DNA of 32,812 nucleotides, taken from the IMG/VR virus record IMGVR_UViG_3300031851_000095, positions 1 through 32,812 of that record. The stretch is one strand, 5' to 3'. Made by a program: the position numbers and the translations under genes. A model generated the notes under the pieces. It made no database searches, was not told where the DNA came from, and was given only the letters and a program-made list of their open reading frames with translations. The stretch's first letter is position 1; the number at the start of each line of letters is the position of its first letter. Of this stretch, positions 2,408-22,314 are shown piece after piece. The stretch comes from a virus.

Positions 2408-4987
2408 ATGGGCACTACAACTGGGTTACGACCTGGCAGCATGGTTTATGACAGGGGCAGTGATACCTATAATCGCGTTGGAGGGTCTTCGTATGATCCT
2501 TTTGATGTCGCAGGTATGGTTGACAGTCTATTAAACCTATCGGACCCTTCAGGAGGAAGGATGACTTCGGGTTTGTTCGATGCCGAAGGTAACTATATCG
2601 TTCCAAACTCGTATCCAGGCGGTCAAGACGCTTATAACGCCGAGATCGCAGAAAACCAAAAACCTAATAGTGAACAATTGCGTGACGTTTTTTCTGAGAA
2701 CTTAACCGCAGGGGATATATACGGAGACACTCTTGCGGGATACGAAGGGGTTAGAGATCCTGTATCAAGCAACGTTTCTGCGGCTCAAGCGTCTGATTAT
2801 TTGTTGTCACAATTAGAAGAGCAGGATGTCCCCTCGTATGTTTCCAATGACGATTACTTTGCTCAGATGGGTGGCACATTAGCCTCTCTTGGGTTGCCTT
2901 CAGCAGCAGCAGATTATCAACCGTCGAGCTCTTTTGAAACATTCGGCGAATCTGAACAAAATAACTCTACCGCCCCAGCCCCAACTACTGCTCCAACAAT
3001 GAATGAAGCGGTTACTACAATATTCGCGAACAATACGAACAACAATGCTAGAAACGTGCCGCAGCCAGACCCGGCGAGAACTGGCCCATTTCAAGAAAGC
3101 GTTTCGGATATTTTTAATAGTGACCGAAGTAACGTTGACATGGTTGATATGGTTCTTGATCGCTACGGCGAAGAAGGACGAGATGCAGCAACCGCAGCAA
3201 TATTGAGTGAGTACAACACTGATGAGCTAGACGCTGAAACCATCGCTACGAACTACAATGATTTTCCCCTCGATGTGCTCATGCAGATATTGAATAGCAT
3301 GCCTGACAACCAGGATGCGATTGATATTCTTTCTCGATCAACTGGGCCGACAGTCACTGAACCAGTACAGCCTCCGGGTACTGGCGAAGGCACACCAGGT
3401 GAAGGCACACCAAGTGAAGGCACACCAGGTGAAGGCACACAAAGTGAAGGTACTCCGGGTGAAGGCACACCAAGTGAAGGTACTCCGGGTGAAGGCACAC
3501 CAAGTGAAGGTACTCCGGGTGAAGGCACACCAAGTGAAGGTACTCCGGGTGAAGGCACACCAAGTGAAGGTACTCCGGGTGAAGCCACACCAGGCGGGGG
3601 CACCCCAGGTGAAGGTATGCCAGGTGGAGGCACCCCAGGGGGAGGTACACCAGGTGGAGGTACACCAGGTGGAGGTTTGCCGGGCGGCAACGATCAACAG
3701 ATTCCAGAAATACCTGGTGTCATTCCTGAAATCCCCGGAATAGATACTGACGATCCTGAACCACCAGAAATTGAAATTCCAAAAGTCGAATTACCAGATA
3801 AACCAACAGGAGGCGGCATGGGCTTTTTTGATAGCGCATTTAAAACCGAAGTAGAAAAAGAGTATGAAGCGGACCAAGAACTACGGTCGCGCGCACAAAG
3901 TCTTCTTGGTACTGGCAGTGTTGATGATAATTTAATTAGCAGATTAAACAGCGGCTACACCAAATACGGCGGTGAGCGTTTTACTGAACAAAACGCTGAC
4001 CAGCTCGGCGCGAACAAGCTAATCCGCGATAATATACTCAACACTCCTGGGCGCGAGATATTCGACGACTCACTTGATTATGCTGCGGGGCTCGGCTCGA
4101 TAGGCACTAACGCAGTCACAGGGGAGAACGTAAACACCCAGGCTACCGATCTGCGTACCGATGGTCGGAAATCTATACAAGATATAGTCGCTGGGCAATT
4201 CGCAGGTACGGCCTTAGATAAATATCTAAACCCATATACGAAGCAAGTAGTCGACACCTCTCTAGCTGACATCGAACGCGCTAGAAAAATGCAGATGCTG
4301 GACAACAATTCACGCGCAACAATGGCGGGTGCTTACGGTGGGGATAGAGCTGCGCTAGTAAACGCTGAGACTAATCGTGGTGCTTTAGATGCTTCAGCTC
4401 GTGTCGCTGCGGATCTGCGTAGTAGAGGGTTTGACGAAGCTGCAAGGCTCTACGGTCAAGATGCTGATCGAACGCTTCAAGCAGATAAAAGCAATCAGTC
4501 TGCCGATTCTGAAGTTGTGCGTAATGCAATGAACATTGCTGCGGATATCGAGACGAATAATCAACAGCAACAACGACTAATCGATTCCCAGAATGAATTG
4601 AACTCTCTAAGTGCTTCGGATCGTCTTTTAGCTGCATTCGGGCAAGGTAATGATGCCTATCGAAGTTATCTATCAGACTACGCAAATCTCGGTCAGAATT
4701 TAGATCAAAGAGATCAGCGTGAAAAAGACTTCGATTTTGCTGAGTTCCTCGCTGCTAACGCTTACGATCAAGATGCGATTGATAACATACTGCGAATGAT
4801 CCAGGTATCCCCACAGAATGAAAAGGAAATTACTTCAGCAGATCTTAATGCTTCAGGCGATTTTGAAGGGCTTATTGGTTTGCCAGGGGATATATCGGAT
4901 GCCGTTGGAACTTTTAAAGATGGTTACGACGCATTCAAAGATATCTTTAAAAGCAATGACCCCTCAACTGACATAAGAAATTTCTAA
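2408..4987 (+). CDS. Large ejection/internal-virion-type protein with pentapeptide repeat linker
   Basis: This 859-residue protein starts at ATG 2408, seven bases after an AAGGA Shine-Dalgarno. Residues 1-325 are acidic and low in Cys. Residues 326-425 are twenty GEGTP/SEGTP/GGGTP-type pentapeptides, a flexible spacer. Residues 430-859 are helical and Gln/Asp/Ala-rich and include AGAYGGDRAALVNAETNRG, a Gly-Tyr-Gly-Gly-x-Arg pattern common in podoviral DNA-transfer/internal virion proteins. It is the first of three consecutive large helical proteins behind a gp10-like tail gene, the usual location of ejection proteins that leave the capsid with the DNA. The ejection role is inference from motif and order. 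A repeat-rich linker of this kind may vary in length between relatives. Confidence 0.6.
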   Translation: MGTTTGLRPGSMVYDRGSDTYNRVGGSSYDPFDVAGMVDSLLNLSDPSGGRMTSGLFDAEGNYIVPNSYPGGQDAYNAEIAENQKPNSEQLRDVFSENLTAGDIYGDTLAGYEGVRDPVSSNVSAAQASDYLLSQLEEQDVPSYVSNDDYFAQMGGTLASLGLPSAAADYQPSSSFETFGESEQNNSTAPAPTTAPTMNEAVTTIFANNTNNNARNVPQPDPARTGPFQESVSDIFNSDRSNVDMVDMVLDRYGEEGRDAATAAILSEYNTDELDAETIATNYNDFPLDVLMQILNSMPDNQDAIDILSRSTGPTVTEPVQPPGTGEGTPGEGTPSEGTPGEGTQSEGTPGEGTPSEGTPGEGTPSEGTPGEGTPSEGTPGEGTPSEGTPGEATPGGGTPGEGMPGGGTPGGGTPGGGTPGGGLPGGNDQQIPEIPGVIPEIPGIDTDDPEPPEIEIPKVELPDKPTGGGMGFFDSAFKTEVEKEYEADQELRSRAQSLLGTGSVDDNLISRLNSGYTKYGGERFTEQNADQLGANKLIRDNILNTPGREIFDDSLDYAAGLGSIGTNAVTGENVNTQATDLRTDGRKSIQDIVAGQFAGTALDKYLNPYTKQVVDTSLADIERARKMQMLDNNSRATMAGAYGGDRAALVNAETNRGALDASARVAADLRSRGFDEAARLYGQDADRTLQADKSNQSADSEVVRNAMNIAADIETNNQQQQRLIDSQNELNSLSASDRLLAAFGQGNDAYRSYLSDYANLGQNLDQRDQREKDFDFAEFLAANAYDQDAIDNILRMIQVSPQNEKEITSADLNASGDFEGLIGLPGDISDAVGTFKDGYDAFKDIFKSNDPSTDIRNF
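3383..3682 (+). repeat. Tandem 15/30-bp repeat encoding 20 Gly-rich pentapeptides
   Basis: The unit is 15 bp (one pentapeptide), organised as a 30-bp higher-order unit encoding GTPGEGTPSE. Four exact 30-bp copies lie head to tail at 3451-3480, 3481-3510, 3511-3540 and 3541-3570, flanked by diverged copies. The downstream copies shift to GGGTP. Because the unit is a multiple of three, other frames also stay open here and produce false Pro-rich reading frames on the minus strand. Exact copies imply recent slippage or recombination-driven expansion. Confidence 0.97.
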
Positions 4988-10781: not shown

Positions 10782-10796
10782 CATGGCTCCTGTTTG

Positions 10797-10827
10797 TTTT
10801 ATATAGTGAGTATATATTTTATATAGT
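10797..10827 (-). promoter_or_regulatory. Candidate promoter/operator of the erf-exo-xis-int operon
   Basis: The 11-mer TTTTATATAGT occurs at 10797-10807 and again at 10817-10827, exactly 20 bp apart (two helical turns), in an A/T-rich block directly upstream of erf. On the minus strand it gives ACTATATAAAA twice, with TATACT and TATAAA as possible -10 boxes. The fixed spacing suggests paired binding of a regulator over the promoter. No clear -35 is visible. Confidence 0.5.
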
Positions 10828-10836
10828 TCGAAAGCC

Positions 10837-10859
10837 AAAAAAAACAGGGACTATCCCTG
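10837..10859 (-). terminator. Intrinsic terminator of the repressor gene
   Basis: On the minus strand the sequence reads CAGGGA, TAG, TCCCTG, then eight T. A 6-bp perfect stem with a 3-nt loop followed by a T-run is a textbook rho-independent terminator. The loop TAG is the repressor stop codon, so the hairpin overlaps the end of the gene. It insulates the repressor transcript from the erf operon. Confidence 0.8.
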
Positions 10860-11513
10860 AATTTGATGCCCTAACACGCAGCCAATAATTTCTTCTTCGC
10901 CAGTAATCTTAAACACCGGGTCGGGAAAAGTTTCGTTCACCAACGTGGCAACGTTGTCGCCAAGGTATTTTGCGAATGTCAGGTTACCGTCGCGAAGTAG
11001 GCAGAACATTTTGCCGGGCTTTGGCTCTTCTTTAAAATCGACAAAGGCAATCGCACCAGAGGGTAGAGAGGGGCTGTTCGCTTCCGATAAAACTTCTAAC
11101 GCATAAGTCTGTTTAGAGTGCGGTCCATGCCAAAACACTTTTTTGGCCGCACCGCTTGCAGTGGAGATGATTTCTTTGATCGTCATTGCATCTATCCCTA
11201 CAAGCCAGCTTACATCAGCAGCGTCTGGGCTTTCCCCGCTGCTACCTCTCACTTGGCTTGATACTTTCTCGGCTTCCCTTAAGAGCCGGGGGCTAAAATC
11301 GCTTAACTCAATTTCTAGGAGCTCGCAGAATTGTATCCCGCGCTTTAGATTAATCTCATTAATACCGTTGAGCATGTGGCTTACGGAGCTAATAGCACCT
11401 GGCTTAAAGCTCATAAACTCGGCAGCTTTGGCGTAGGTCAAACCGAGAACTCCGGCCTTCGCAACCCATAGCGCCTTTAATCTTGTCGCTTCTTCGATTT
11501 TTTCAGTTAGCAT
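10851..11513 (-). CDS. CI-like repressor with S24-like domain lacking the catalytic serine
   Basis: This 220-residue protein has an N-terminal helical DNA-binding region (residues 10-75: LTYAKAAEFMSF, then SVSHMLNGINEI), a hinge, and a C-terminal LexA/CI-type S24 domain. In the pattern V-x-G-D-S-M-x-P-x-x-P-x-G the sequence reads VLSEANSPSLPSG (residues 141-153), so the catalytic Ser is Ala145; the partner Lys182 (FAKYL) is kept. No Ala-Gly or Cys-Gly cleavage pair is seen in the hinge. The protein looks like the lysogeny repressor but may not self-cleave. It is transcribed leftward, divergent from the other regulators, and ends in its own terminator. Confidence 0.8.
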   Translation of the reverse strand: MLTEKIEEATRLKALWVAKAGVLGLTYAKAAEFMSFKPGAISSVSHMLNGINEINLKRGIQFCELLEIELSDFSPRLLREAEKVSSQVRGSSGESPDAADVSWLVGIDAMTIKEIISTASGAAKKVFWHGPHSKQTYALEVLSEANSPSLPSGAIAFVDFKEEPKPGKMFCLLRDGNLTFAKYLGDNVATLVNETFPDPVFKITGEEEIIGCVLGHQIQG

Positions 11514-11570
11514 TTATAGACTCGGTATTATGGAGTATCATAACGGATCAAAAACCAGATCCTAACCGAA
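11514..11570 (-). promoter_or_regulatory. Upstream region of the repressor with inverted repeat
   Basis: Reading on the minus strand, TATGAT lies about 26 bases before the repressor ATG and could be its -10. An inverted repeat GGATC-N8-GATCC at 11545-11562 lies where the -35 would be. No convincing Shine-Dalgarno precedes the ATG. This is a candidate repressor promoter with an operator; the assignment is tentative. Confidence 0.35.
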
Positions 11571-11626
11571 AGTCTATCCTATGTACAACCTATATATCTC
11601 TATTACAGTACTGCTGTCTGAGACAT

Positions 11627-11643
11627 CCATACAATCTGTATGG
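11627..11643. promoter_or_regulatory. Operator palindrome OR-a
   Basis: CCATACA-ATC-TGTATGG is a perfect 7-bp inverted repeat with a 3-bp spacer. The same CATACA-N3-TGTATG core recurs at 12396-12410 before the next XRE gene. Its TACAAT could serve as a rightward -10. Two exact copies before two regulator genes make this the best operator candidate of the immunity region. Confidence 0.75.
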
Positions 11644-11655
11644 GGGAAAGTTAAG

Positions 11656-11802
11656 TTGCCTGAAAACTTGAGTAGCCTCAATACCAAAAACGGTAGCAAA
11701 TTCAATTTATCTTTATTAAATTTTATAAAAACTGCCAAATTGGAAGACCAAAAAATAACCAAGCTGCGCAAAAAGCGTAAATTAAGAATAAAAATGTCAT
11801 GA
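11656..11802 (+). CDS. Candidate small basic protein
   Basis: A 48-residue frame begins at TTG 11656, nine bases after a GGGGG Shine-Dalgarno-like run immediately downstream of the operator, and ends in ATGA with the next gene. The sequence is Lys/Asn/Leu-rich and ends in a strongly basic stretch (KLRKKRKLRIKMS), which could bind nucleic acid. The position is reminiscent of small early antiterminators, but there is no N-like arginine-rich N-terminus. The A/T-rich composition makes a chance frame possible. Weakly supported. Confidence 0.3.
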   Translation: MPENLSSLNTKNGSKFNLSLLNFIKTAKLEDQKITKLRKKRKLRIKMS

Positions 11803-12371
11803 ACAACCTTAAACAAATCTTTGATATTTATAAGAAAAAAACAAAAAAAAGCATCACACAAACCTCGATAGACATTGGGTGGAGTCAATCTGCACTTGGT
11901 TTGTACTTAACTGGCGCGCGTCCGATGCCGCGAAAGGATGTTGTAACGGCTGCAAATTTCTTCGCTGTTGATCCTCGGTCCATCGATTCTGACTTCCTCT
12001 TTGTAGATCAAGTAGAAGTGGCAGTGATTGGGAATATCTCAGGCAATGAACTAAAGAGCGAATACATAAAAATTCACTCAGGTTTCAACGAGTTAAATGT
12101 TTTGCACATTGACCGCAAAATAAATATTGAGGCTGGACCAGACTGCGATATGTCGGAATTCATGGATGGAGGTTTTTTACCTATAGGGGCGTTCGTTGCA
12201 ATTAAAGAACCTGACAGCTTTTGGGTAAAAGATGAAAACTGGGCTGTGGCAAACAATCGAACCTGGCTGTTAAGAAACGGAGAAAAATGGACAGCCTTAA
12301 AAAACAAAAGCAAGCCCTTCCTGAAAAACTTCGAGGTTGTCGGTTATGCGATCAGTATTTATTACGCTTAA
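11799..12371 (+). CDS. XRE-type regulator with degenerate S24-like C-terminus
   Basis: This 190-residue protein has an N-terminal XRE-like helix-turn-helix (KSITQTSIDIGWSQSALGLY, followed by LTGARPMPRKDVVTAANFF). The second half resembles the beta-rich C-terminal domain of CI/LexA regulators (FLPIGAFVAIKE, then FEVVGYAISIYY), but no SM/K catalytic pair is present. It lies downstream of the 11627 operator and upstream of a second copy of it, transcribed away from the CI-like repressor. It is likely a second repressor or antirepressor-type regulator of the lysis-lysogeny decision. No strong Shine-Dalgarno is seen; translational coupling through ATGA with the small upstream frame is possible. 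Confidence 0.7.
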   Translation: MNNLKQIFDIYKKKTKKSITQTSIDIGWSQSALGLYLTGARPMPRKDVVTAANFFAVDPRSIDSDFLFVDQVEVAVIGNISGNELKSEYIKIHSGFNELNVLHIDRKINIEAGPDCDMSEFMDGGFLPIGAFVAIKEPDSFWVKDENWAVANNRTWLLRNGEKWTALKNKSKPFLKNFEVVGYAISIYYA

Positions 12372-12382
12372 CTGCAAATAGT

Positions 12383-12412
12383 TTGACTTCGTAATCATAC
12401 AAACTGTATGGT
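12383..12412 (+). promoter_or_regulatory. Promoter with operator OR-b, probably leaderless
   Basis: TTGACT (12383-12388) and TATGGT (12407-12412), 18 bp apart, form a plausible sigma70-type promoter. The palindrome CATACA-AAC-TGTATG (12396-12410) covers the -10, so a bound regulator would block it. The expected transcript start falls on or just before the ATG at 12419, and no Shine-Dalgarno exists, so the message may be leaderless. Confidence 0.6.
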
Positions 12413-12418
12413 TCGCTC

Positions 12419-12760
12419 ATGGAAATTATAAAAGCCTTCCGAACCAACGCCAGAGTCGAATTAGATCGACAAGGCAAAACGCAAGCTGACGTTGCGAGGG
12501 ATACTTCCATGAGTATTAAGCAGGTTTATTCTCTGTTTAATCATCAAAGCACAAGTCGTTTAGATTTTTCCTATGCGATGATTCTCGCAGATTACCTAAG
12601 TGTTTCGGTCTACACCCTTACAGGCGCTGAGTCTGCGGGGGCTGAGAAAGAAAGGAAATTTAAAAAAATTCTCCATGAACAAAAGCTGGCTCTTGGTAAA
12701 TTAAGCTTAGATCACGACGCATTGATGCGCAAATTCCAAAAAGACTTAAAACAGTTTTAG
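12419..12760 (+). CDS. XRE-family regulator (Cro-like)
   Basis: This 113-residue protein has a clear XRE helix-turn-helix at about residues 18-60 (KTQADVARDTSMSIKQVYSL, then ADYLSVSVYTLTG). A Lys-rich helical C-terminus may dimerise. The ATG lies nine bases after the operator palindrome and has no Shine-Dalgarno. The rightward position immediately downstream of a shared operator fits a Cro- or C2-type regulator that represses the lysogeny circuit. A CII-type activator is less likely given the autoregulatory operator. Confidence 0.75.
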   Translation: MEIIKAFRTNARVELDRQGKTQADVARDTSMSIKQVYSLFNHQSTSRLDFSYAMILADYLSVSVYTLTGAESAGAEKERKFKKILHEQKLALGKLSLDHDALMRKFQKDLKQF

Positions 12761-12791: not shown

Positions 12792-12821
12792 CACTACCTG
12801 TACTTAAAATATGGAGTGCCT

Positions 12822-13112
12822 ATGTACCCGAACACTTATCAGCGTCCGACACCACTGAAAGAATGGATCAGTTCTAAGGGTCTTACCTATCGCGCAGCAG
12901 CAGAACATTTTGGCTTTCAGCCTGTCGCGATTCAAAAAATGATCTCTGGCAACAGGGACGTTGGAGTCTGGACCGACGATCAGCTCGTCGAGACAAAAAA
13001 GATCCAAGCAAAAGCTGTCCATGCTTGCGGCGCTATGTACGGATACCCAAAAGAGCAGGAAGTAATCGTCGCGATTAAGTTAGAACCACGAGGCAAGATG
13101 CTAGATGAATGA
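12822..13112 (+). CDS. Small DNA-binding regulator (HTH-like)
   Basis: ATG 12822 has GGAG five bases upstream, better than GTG 12816 in the same frame. The 96-residue product carries a helix-turn-helix-like segment (LTYRAAAEHFGFQPVAIQKM, then ISGNRDVG) near residues 20-50 and a charged C-terminus. It opens the rightward replication operon and overlaps the next gene by eight bases. By position it could be a CII/Cro-class regulator. I do not recognise a precise family. Confidence 0.65.
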   Translation: MYPNTYQRPTPLKEWISSKGLTYRAAAEHFGFQPVAIQKMISGNRDVGVWTDDQLVETKKIQAKAVHACGAMYGYPKEQEVIVAIKLEPRGKMLDE

Positions 13113-16507: not shown

Positions 16508-17016
16508 GGGTTGCTACCATTTTGATATTGTGGGTTTGTGCCGGTCTTATAATCTTTCCCTTGAGATCAAGACATCCCGACGGCGCGGCTCACAACCTAC
16601 TTAGAGATCCCCAAATGATTCGAGAACTCCTAAAGCGCCAGGAAGGCTTGCGGCTGCATCCTTATCGCGACAACGGAAGCCTATCCATTGGCTTCGGTCG
16701 GAACCTAACGTCGCTAGGGATTACTGAAGCAGAAGCTGAAATGCTACTGGAAGCAGACATTGAGCGGGTCGAAGAAGAGATGGGCGCTTACGATTATTTT
16801 AGTGGCCTATCACCCGAGCGAAAGGCGGCAGTAATGTCTTTAGGTTATAACTTAGGGGCGACCCGGTATGCGTTATTTATTAATCACCATTCAGCGATGG
16901 CTAAAGGTGATTACGAGGAAGCGGCTAAAAACATCTACCCCGACTCCCTCTACGCAGAGCAAGTCCCAAACCGCGCCAAAGAAATCGCAGAGATACTCCT
17001 CACCAATGAAATATGA
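16504..17016 (+). CDS. T4-type endolysin (GH24) with N-terminal signal anchor
   Basis: This 170-residue muramidase starts at GTG 16504, overlapping the previous stop. Residues 1-20 form one hydrophobic segment (ATILILWVCAGLIIFPL), consistent with a signal-anchor-release or signal-peptide endolysin that uses the host Sec route. The catalytic region reads RQEGLRLHPYRD and NGSLSIGFGRNL, giving Glu47, Asp56 and Ser61 in place of the usual Glu-Asp-Thr triad, plus the conserved GYNLG motif (SLGYNLGA). ATG 16616 would yield a cytosolic form without the anchor. It hydrolyses the peptidoglycan glycan strand. Confidence 0.88.
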   Translation: MRVATILILWVCAGLIIFPLRSRHPDGAAHNLLRDPQMIRELLKRQEGLRLHPYRDNGSLSIGFGRNLTSLGITEAEAEMLLEADIERVEEEMGAYDYFSGLSPERKAAVMSLGYNLGATRYALFINHHSAMAKGDYEEAAKNIYPDSLYAEQVPNRAKEIAEILLTNEI

Positions 17017-17422
17017 GGTAGCGGCGACAGTCGACCGGATTATTGACGGCGACTCGATTGAAGTTACCTTATCGCTCGGCTGGTCGATGTACCACAAAAC
17101 GAGTATTCGCTTACATCATGTGGACACACCTGAAATGCGTGGTGGTACAGGCATCAGCAAGGCGGCTGCCCGGTTAGCAAAAGCTCACGTTGAAACACTC
17201 GTCCCGGTCGGATCTCAGATTGTCATCGACAGCAAGGAGCTCGACAAATTCGGTAGGGGTCTGGCGATAGTCACGAACGCTGAAGGCGTGAACGTTGGCG
17301 AGGATCTCATACAAAGAGGCCTTGCTGTGAGATACGAAGGCGGCAACAAAGCGGAGGTTGCTGCGGCTCATCAAAAGAATTACGAGCTGCTGCAAGCGCA
17401 AGGGCTGATCAGTGAAACTTAA
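17006..17422 (+). CDS. Staphylococcal-nuclease-like (thermonuclease) enzyme
   Basis: This 138-residue protein has the SNase fold signature: RIIDGDSIEV, IRLHHVDTPEMRGG (Arg35, Asp40, Glu43) and DKFGRGLAIV (Arg84), matching the catalytic Arg, Asp, Glu and second Arg. YEGGNKAEVAAAHQKNY fits the C-terminal helix. Its ATG lies 11 bp before the endolysin stop, so translation is coupled. No signal peptide is visible, so it would act in the cytoplasm or be released on lysis. Its place between endolysin and holin is unusual. Confidence 0.88.
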   Translation: MKYEVAATVDRIIDGDSIEVTLSLGWSMYHKTSIRLHHVDTPEMRGGTGISKAAARLAKAHVETLVPVGSQIVIDSKELDKFGRGLAIVTNAEGVNVGEDLIQRGLAVRYEGGNKAEVAAAHQKNYELLQAQGLISET

Positions 17423-21440: not shown

Positions 21441-21642
21441 TGCCAAGCACTAGATGTTGTGGTTTCGGGTGGATTTGACCTATAGGGCGAGCAGGGGTTT
21501 TCGTAAGTCATTGATTTTATTGATAACCTTCTGCTATTTCCGGTAATAGTAATTACCGGAATTAGTGGGAACCCCGGATTTTAGCCCCCCCTTCGCGAAA
21601 ATCGAGCGGGGTACAGGGATATACCCCCACAGAGAAACCGTC
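21441..21642. other. Structured non-coding segment upstream of the late genes
   Basis: These 202 bases hold no convincing gene. They contain three inverted repeats. The first is a perfect 24-bp element at 21538-21561, with 10-bp arms TTCCGGTAAT and ATTACCGGAA and a 4-nt loop. The second is GATTTT...AAAATC around a C-run (GCCCCCCC). The third is GGGGTA...TACCCC around 21615-21635. None is followed by a T-run, so terminators are unlikely. A packaging (cos) site, a late promoter/operator, or both are possible, since packaging genes follow. Confidence 0.6.
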
Positions 21643-22314
21643 ATGCATCCAGAGCTTCCCAGATCAGCCAAACTATCTCTCTCGGCTTATTCGGACATGT
21701 CTGGTCAGTTCGGTCATAAATTTGAAAATAAATTCACGAGTACGACCTTTTGGTGGATTGAGGGCGAGAAGGACTATCTGGTTTTCAAAGGTAGTGCGGA
21801 GCCCCGAGATTTTTTGGTAGATATTTTTGCATTTCCTCCGGTGCGTTATCTGAGGAACTGGGTTCATCCTGGGTTTGCAATAGCACATAAATCTATTAAG
21901 CCGCGACTGCTCAAAATTTTGCGGAAAATAAAATCTGAAAATAAGCAGTTAGTAATCACCGGGCATTCATTAGGTGCCGCCCAGGCTGAACTGACGCACT
22001 TACTGGCGTTGTCTTATGGGATAGATAGCACCGCTATTTGCTTTGGAAAGCCTCGCGTCTTTTTGAAGAGCTCTAAGAGCCGTTTTCCGAAAGGGTCGAT
22101 GTTATCGGTGGTCTCTGGGTCAGACATTGTCGCCAGGGTTCCCCGGTACTGTTACACGGTTGGCTGCAAGGACCAGGATTTTCTCTATTTGAGTAACCAT
22201 GACGATGTTTATTTGAACCCGGACATGGACTTTGTTGCTGATGATTTCTCTGTCTCTGACTCTATATCTGACCATTCAATGGAGGCCTACCTCCAACGTG
22301 TTGGTGGCTTATGA
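21643..22314 (+). CDS. Class-3 lipase family alpha/beta-hydrolase
   Basis: ATG 21643 follows AGAGA at good spacing; GTG 21565 would add 26 residues of non-conserved sequence. The 223-residue product contains the nucleophile elbow VITGHSLGAA (Ser109), FGKPRVF, the acid GSDIVARVPR (Asp161) and a C-terminal DHSMEAYL (His211), which together make the Ser-Asp-His triad of the Lipase_3 family. VHPGFAIA matches the strand before the lid. No signal peptide is seen. It lies just ahead of small structural-type genes and the terminase. A role in membrane damage, infection or lysis is inferred. Confidence 0.82.
   Translation: MHPELPRSAKLSLSAYSDMSGQFGHKFENKFTSTTFWWIEGEKDYLVFKGSAEPRDFLVDIFAFPPVRYLRNWVHPGFAIAHKSIKPRLLKILRKIKSENKQLVITGHSLGAAQAELTHLLALSYGIDSTAICFGKPRVFLKSSKSRFPKGSMLSVVSGSDIVARVPRYCYTVGCKDQDFLYLSNHDDVYLNPDMDFVADDFSVSDSISDHSMEAYLQRVGGL

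Follow-up and report, generated by a model that had tools for sequence, protein, structure and literature searches.

The window analysed here is the whole of a virus record, 32,812 bases in length (IMGVR_UViG_3300031851_000095), and the gene under study is an open reading frame of 220 amino acids on its minus strand, at positions 10851-11513. A sequence-only reading of the window had described this frame as a CI-like repressor that cannot cleave itself, and the frame is present as claimed. It is the first gene to the left of a divergent intergenic region of 285 bases. To its left follow, in order, erf, a YqaJ exonuclease gene, a short gene, an excisionase-like gene and the integrase gene, and to the right of the divergent region stand three genes for helix-turn-helix (HTH) proteins and then replication genes. 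Immunity regions of temperate phages have this gene order.

Profile and alignment searches, together with the relatives of the protein, divide it into a lambda-type HTH domain (approximately residues 1-80), a linker and a degenerate S24-like C-terminal domain. The four relatives that we found lie on other metagenomic viral contigs and are 89% (L002), 87% (L003), 54% (L021) and 53% (L022) identical to the window protein; no close relative of the repressor was found in the phage collection. The N-terminal DNA-binding domain (residues 1-80; 11274-11513, minus strand) is a homologue of the lambda repressor N-terminal domain (NTD), to which its similarity is significant: phmmer matched this part of the repressor to 3bdn (E 3.7e-11), 3kz3 (E 1.8e-10) and also 1lmb, and hmmsearch agreed. 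When the family alignment was compared by hhalign with eight cleavable CI repressors, the two aligned over columns 3-217 with a probability of 99.6% and an E value of 6.8e-25, and hmmsearch with a profile of the same eight repressors gave 66-78 bits in all five family members, with E values down to 1e-25. The C-terminal domain is thus homologous to the self-cleaving S24 repressors along its whole length. From these comparisons we consider it probable, with good though incomplete confidence, that 10851-11513 encodes a lambda CI homologue which serves a temperate phage as its lysogeny repressor and whose S24 domain is now a pseudoprotease.

Three elements that self-cleavage requires are missing from this protein. 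The first is the catalytic serine. Residues 141-153, VLSEANSPSLPSG, align without gaps to the S24 serine motif with Ala145 (codon GCG, 11079-11081, minus strand) in the catalytic column, at the position of lambda Ser149, just as the sequence-only reading had proposed. MAFFT in two modes, hhalign and HMMER with the profile of eight cleavable repressors were used for this placement. In a gap-free block scan the Ala145 register scored 22.5 and the next best 1.0, with none of 1000 shuffles reaching the score of the former, and we saw no alignment that put a different serine in the active site, nor any serine that competes with Ala145.

The second element is the catalytic lysine. It had been thought to be retained as Lys182, but that assignment is shifted by one residue: in lambda the first lysine of FTFKKL is K192, the counterpart in the window repressor reads LTFAKYL according to all aligners, and it is Ala181 (codon GCA, 10971-10973, minus strand) that fills the catalytic column, while Lys182 corresponds to the non-catalytic K193 of lambda. 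The block scores were +12.4 for Ala181 and -3.4 for Lys182, and the best match of the C-terminal domain in the PDB is 8gmu, a lambda CI with an engineered K192A substitution (tfAk). A register on K113, which scored 13.7 against 12.4 for Ala181 in the window protein, was rejected because K113 precedes the serine block and L021 has nothing that corresponds to it. Among the phage CI relatives that we fetched for comparison, the serine column holds serine in 12 of 12 and the lysine column of the MAFFT alignment holds lysine in 9 of 12. In H66, BR201a and PA8 that column lies one residue beyond the lysine of RVKF, and in a second alignment, which included only H66 of these three, the RVKF lysine falls in the invariant lysine column.

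The third element is the scissile bond itself. As had been claimed, the linker contains no Ala-Gly or Cys-Gly pair, and in the MAFFT alignment the YPVxSxVQAG segment of the cleavable relatives is absent. In its place stands an ADVxWLVG motif (residues 98-106; 11196-11222, minus strand), in which 8 of 9 residues are identical to those of the 54% relatives. The claim that this repressor cannot cleave itself is therefore well supported, since serine, lysine and scissile bond have all been lost and the losses are kept in the four relatives; because both halves of the dyad are gone in addition to the cleavage site, the earlier observation is in fact stronger than it was stated. Self-cleavage appears very unlikely for a protein of this sequence. 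Binding to RecA is another matter, as a lambda CI fragment that carries K192A and is catalytically dead retains its binding to RecA filaments (PMC6363387), so that RecA binding by this repressor, unlike cleavage, may still occur.

Ala145 and Ala181 are present in five of five family members (the window protein and its four relatives), with the codon at 145 varying among GCG, GCT and GCA and that at 181 being GCA throughout. The ratio of nonsynonymous to synonymous substitution rates (dN/dS) in the C-terminal domain is 0.035-0.067, which indicates purifying selection. A fresh mutation can be dismissed, because both alanines are kept in relatives down to about 53% identity under such selection, and the domain is, from these comparisons, an old and maintained pseudoprotease. 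Conservation is not spread evenly along it. The former serine block (residues 132-160, HSxQTYxxEVxSEANxPxLPSGAIxxxDF; 11034-11120, minus strand) is 76% identical to that of L021, while the C-terminal part in its entirety reaches 51%, and the former lysine block (residues 179-197, TFAKYLGDNxATLxNxxFP; 10923-10979, minus strand) is 79% identical. Measured against both relatives of about 54%, the blocks around the dead residues are 69-79% identical, or 69-89% when the ADVxWLVG block is included, compared with approximately 51% for the domain and 14-35% for the stretches between the blocks. Statistically, the enrichment of invariant sites around the dead residues is modest (Fisher P 0.04, in five related sequences). 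Because the serine and lysine blocks are among the most conserved C-terminal parts, we tentatively raise the rather speculative possibility that the dead active site has been put to a new use, as a docking surface for whatever switches the repressor off, be it a peptide, a small signal molecule or an antirepressor.

The immunity region also contains a conserved pair of operator-like sites. A palindrome of 17 bases, CCATACAnnnTGTATGG, has exactly two sites with at most one mismatch in each full immunity region, where 0.00 are expected. The full loci counted are those of the window, L002 (5864 and 5096), L021 (5635 and 4888) and L022 (5635 and 4888); the L003 contig stops before the second place and holds one copy, at 413. 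In the window, O1 (CCATACAATCTGTATGG, 11627-11643) lies in the divergent intergenic region between the repressor gene and the gene at 11799, and O2 (TCATACAAACTGTATGG, 12395-12411) overlaps the -10 element of a promoter-like sequence, TTGACT-N18-TATGGT (12383-12412, plus strand), in front of the gene at 12419; the relatives have TTGACA-N18-TATGGT there. The position and conservation of these sites make the palindrome a likely operator candidate. An AT-rich near-palindrome common to the erf promoter and the divergent region had been considered for this role, proved weak and was replaced by CCATACAnnnTGTATGG. The expected start of transcription from the promoter before 12419 (12383-12425) falls at or beside the ATG, so the mRNA of that gene may be leaderless.

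The three genes to the right of the divergent region were each assigned to HTH proteins by domain scans. The first (11799-12371, plus strand) encodes a protein of 190 amino acids in the position of cro, and this product is 69, 35 and 34% identical to its three full-length relatives, a fourth contig holding the N-terminal part. Its C-terminal domain of approximately 120 residues is without recognised relatives outside this phage group; by eye it suggested a second dead S24 domain (xVSGxxPL, DMSEF), an idea that we abandoned when hhalign aligned the HTH part only. The second gene (12419-12760, plus strand) encodes 113 amino acids, and the third (12816-13112, plus strand) encodes a weakly Cro-like protein of 98 amino acids that more probably begins with the ATG at 12822. 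The sequence-only reading had suggested that induction depends on an antirepressor, perhaps the product of 11799 or 12419. The general idea fits N15 CB and 186 CI, two repressors that have been studied experimentally and whose domain is dead in a similar way, but the two candidates find no support, as both encode HTH DNA-binding proteins and neither matched an antirepressor family. Because its promoter is overlapped by the conserved operator-like palindrome, 12419 resembles a repressed lytic gene and not an inducer.

In lambda CI the C-terminal domain serves dimerisation and cooperativity, and since the domain has been kept in the window family these roles have probably been kept with it. We propose a repressor that would retain the fold for dimerisation and cooperative binding while lacking the nucleophile (replaced by Ala145), the general base (replaced by Ala181) and the Ala-Gly substrate segment. 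It would most likely bind O1 at 11627 and O2 at 12395, in the promoter of 12419, and so keep the lytic operon off. Because such a repressor is unable to cut itself, relief of the switch would have to be non-proteolytic; RecA would be expected not to inactivate it, and an antirepressor or other binding partner would most likely do so, as with N15 CB and 186 CI. The usual way out of lysogeny, in which DNA damage sets off cleavage of the repressor by itself, would then very probably not be the one that this prophage takes.

Repressors of the CI type in which the S24 domain is dead are already known. In one survey of linear plasmid-like phages 210 of 271 CI proteins were classed as putatively non-autoproteolytic, so this class is common, and the N15 repressor was found to be non-proteolytic and to be controlled by antirepression (PMC10432266). 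N15 CB, whose antirepressor is AntC, resembles the window repressor in having an HTH and an S24-like C-terminal domain and in the terminator and operators near its gene. It has glutamine in both the serine column (GNQIQ) and the lysine column (TIQRL) and Thr-Gly in place of Ala-Gly; its HTH is of another type, and an antirepressor is known for N15. Because the replacement residues differ, the losses in N15 CB and in the window family are probably independent. The 186 CI protein, which is induced through the LexA-controlled antirepressor Tum (PMC3121763), is likewise of full length, with a C-terminal domain that has degenerated and lacks the dyad, but it has no lambda-type HTH, and in 186 int directly follows cI, whereas in the window a terminator, erf, exo and xis lie between the repressor gene and int. 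Lambda CI, P22 C2 and the repressors with a lambda NTD share the two-domain layout and clear whole-length homology with the window family; they have Ser, Lys and Ala-Gly where the window family has Ala, Ala and no segment, and the window family carries an insertion of three residues in the HTH region. The Gifsy repressors GfoR and GtgR have a lambda NTD-like domain, are uncleaved and are controlled by antirepressors (PMC3121763). They are approximately 136-150 amino acids long and have no C-terminal domain, while the window repressor, at 220 amino acids, has one that is under purifying selection. The combination of an HTH with a full-length S24-like domain without the dyad is that of N15 CB and 186 CI, and the window family would appear, by its sequence, to be a separate lineage of this kind.

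Several points weigh against this interpretation. The match of the repressor to PF00717 is poor (E 0.0017) and falls below the Pfam curated cut-off in every member scanned. The AlphaFold models were unusable, with shallow alignments and a mean predicted local distance difference test (pLDDT) score of 36 for the repressor and 34 for the 11799 product, so the assignment of the S24 fold rests on sequence profiles. The O1/O2 pair could belong to the product of 11799 instead of the repressor. Finally, no antirepressor gene was found, as none of the proteins scanned matched an antirepressor family. A further reading, which we think somewhat unlikely, is that DNA damage does not induce the phage at all, and that lysogeny ends in response to other cues or when repression is lost stochastically, with 11799 acting as Cro. 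The divergent position of 11799 and its conservation in the relatives agree with a Cro-like role, and LexA boxes of the E. coli, alphaproteobacterial and Bacillus types occurred at chance level in the window with none in the immunity region. Two scans of genome contigs, one using the repressor alignment and the other the exonuclease, did not bring up a host, so these three types may not include its LexA box and the absence of boxes means little; an antirepressor may also sit elsewhere in the genome, as in the Gifsy phages (PMC3121763).

Alternatively, a repressor that does not cleave itself might still be removed after DNA damage by a host protease or by an S24 protein acting in trans. We regard this as improbable, since neither an intact S24 protein nor any other protease candidate turned up among the window proteins scanned and the segment that an S24 enzyme would cut in trans is absent. 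Degenerate domains can shift in strand register and Lys182 is invariant in all five family members, so that a misplaced alignment could in principle hide an active site formed by Lys182 and another serine, with self-cleavage retained. The block scores make this very improbable, favouring Ala181 over Lys182 and giving a serine block unique to Ala145; Ser143 falls in the glycine column of the GxSM motif, and the Ala-Gly substrate is missing too. That the gene is a decaying or recently mutated one in a defective prophage, as the loss of three elements might suggest, is scarcely credible given the dN/dS values, the same state in the 54% relatives and the intact surrounding gene order in the relatives.

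The repressor gene ends in an intrinsic terminator, CAGGGATAGTCCCTG followed by T8 (10845-10859, minus strand), which is conserved in L002 and L003 and separates it from the erf-exo-xis-int operon. The erf promoter region contains a near-palindrome, TATATACTCACTATATA (10800-10816, minus strand), which is also conserved in L002 and L003 and is a possible binding site for another regulator. The TTG start listed for erf falls inside the terminator and promoter region (10784-10838), and AGGAGCCATGATG at approximately 10784 is the likelier start. Upstream, the leader of the repressor gene (11514-11582, minus strand) has no Shine-Dalgarno sequence and folds into hairpins immediately upstream of the ATG. 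The dinucleotide z scores are -2.8 in the window, -3.3 in L003 (475-543) and -2.3 in L021 (5666-5721), and weaker in L002 (-0.95) and L022 (-1.1); in L021 and L022 the hairpin is kept directly before the ATG with a different sequence. No Rfam family matched the leader.

Elsewhere in the window, a protein with a class 3 lipase domain (PF01764, E 1.7e-14), which phages do not usually carry, is encoded at 21565-22314 amid the late genes. A staphylococcal nuclease homologue (PF00565, E 6.2e-9) is encoded at 16868-17422, directly after the phage lysozyme gene, which it overlaps in the list of open reading frames. In the gene for a protein of 859 amino acids (2408-4987), an extended series of (T/S)PGEG-type repeats at 3253-3743 keeps several other frames open.

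The repressor described here represents a lambda-type lineage, from metagenomic viral contigs, in which self-cleavage would have been wholly lost while the domain responsible for it was kept and conserved, and no close counterpart was detected among sequenced phages or genomes. With an S24 match that stays under the curated threshold, such a repressor may escape automatic annotation. The lineage adds to the case against the universality of RecA-dependent cleavage as the route of induction, and the immunity region, with one repressor, two candidate operators and three HTH genes, is small and testable.
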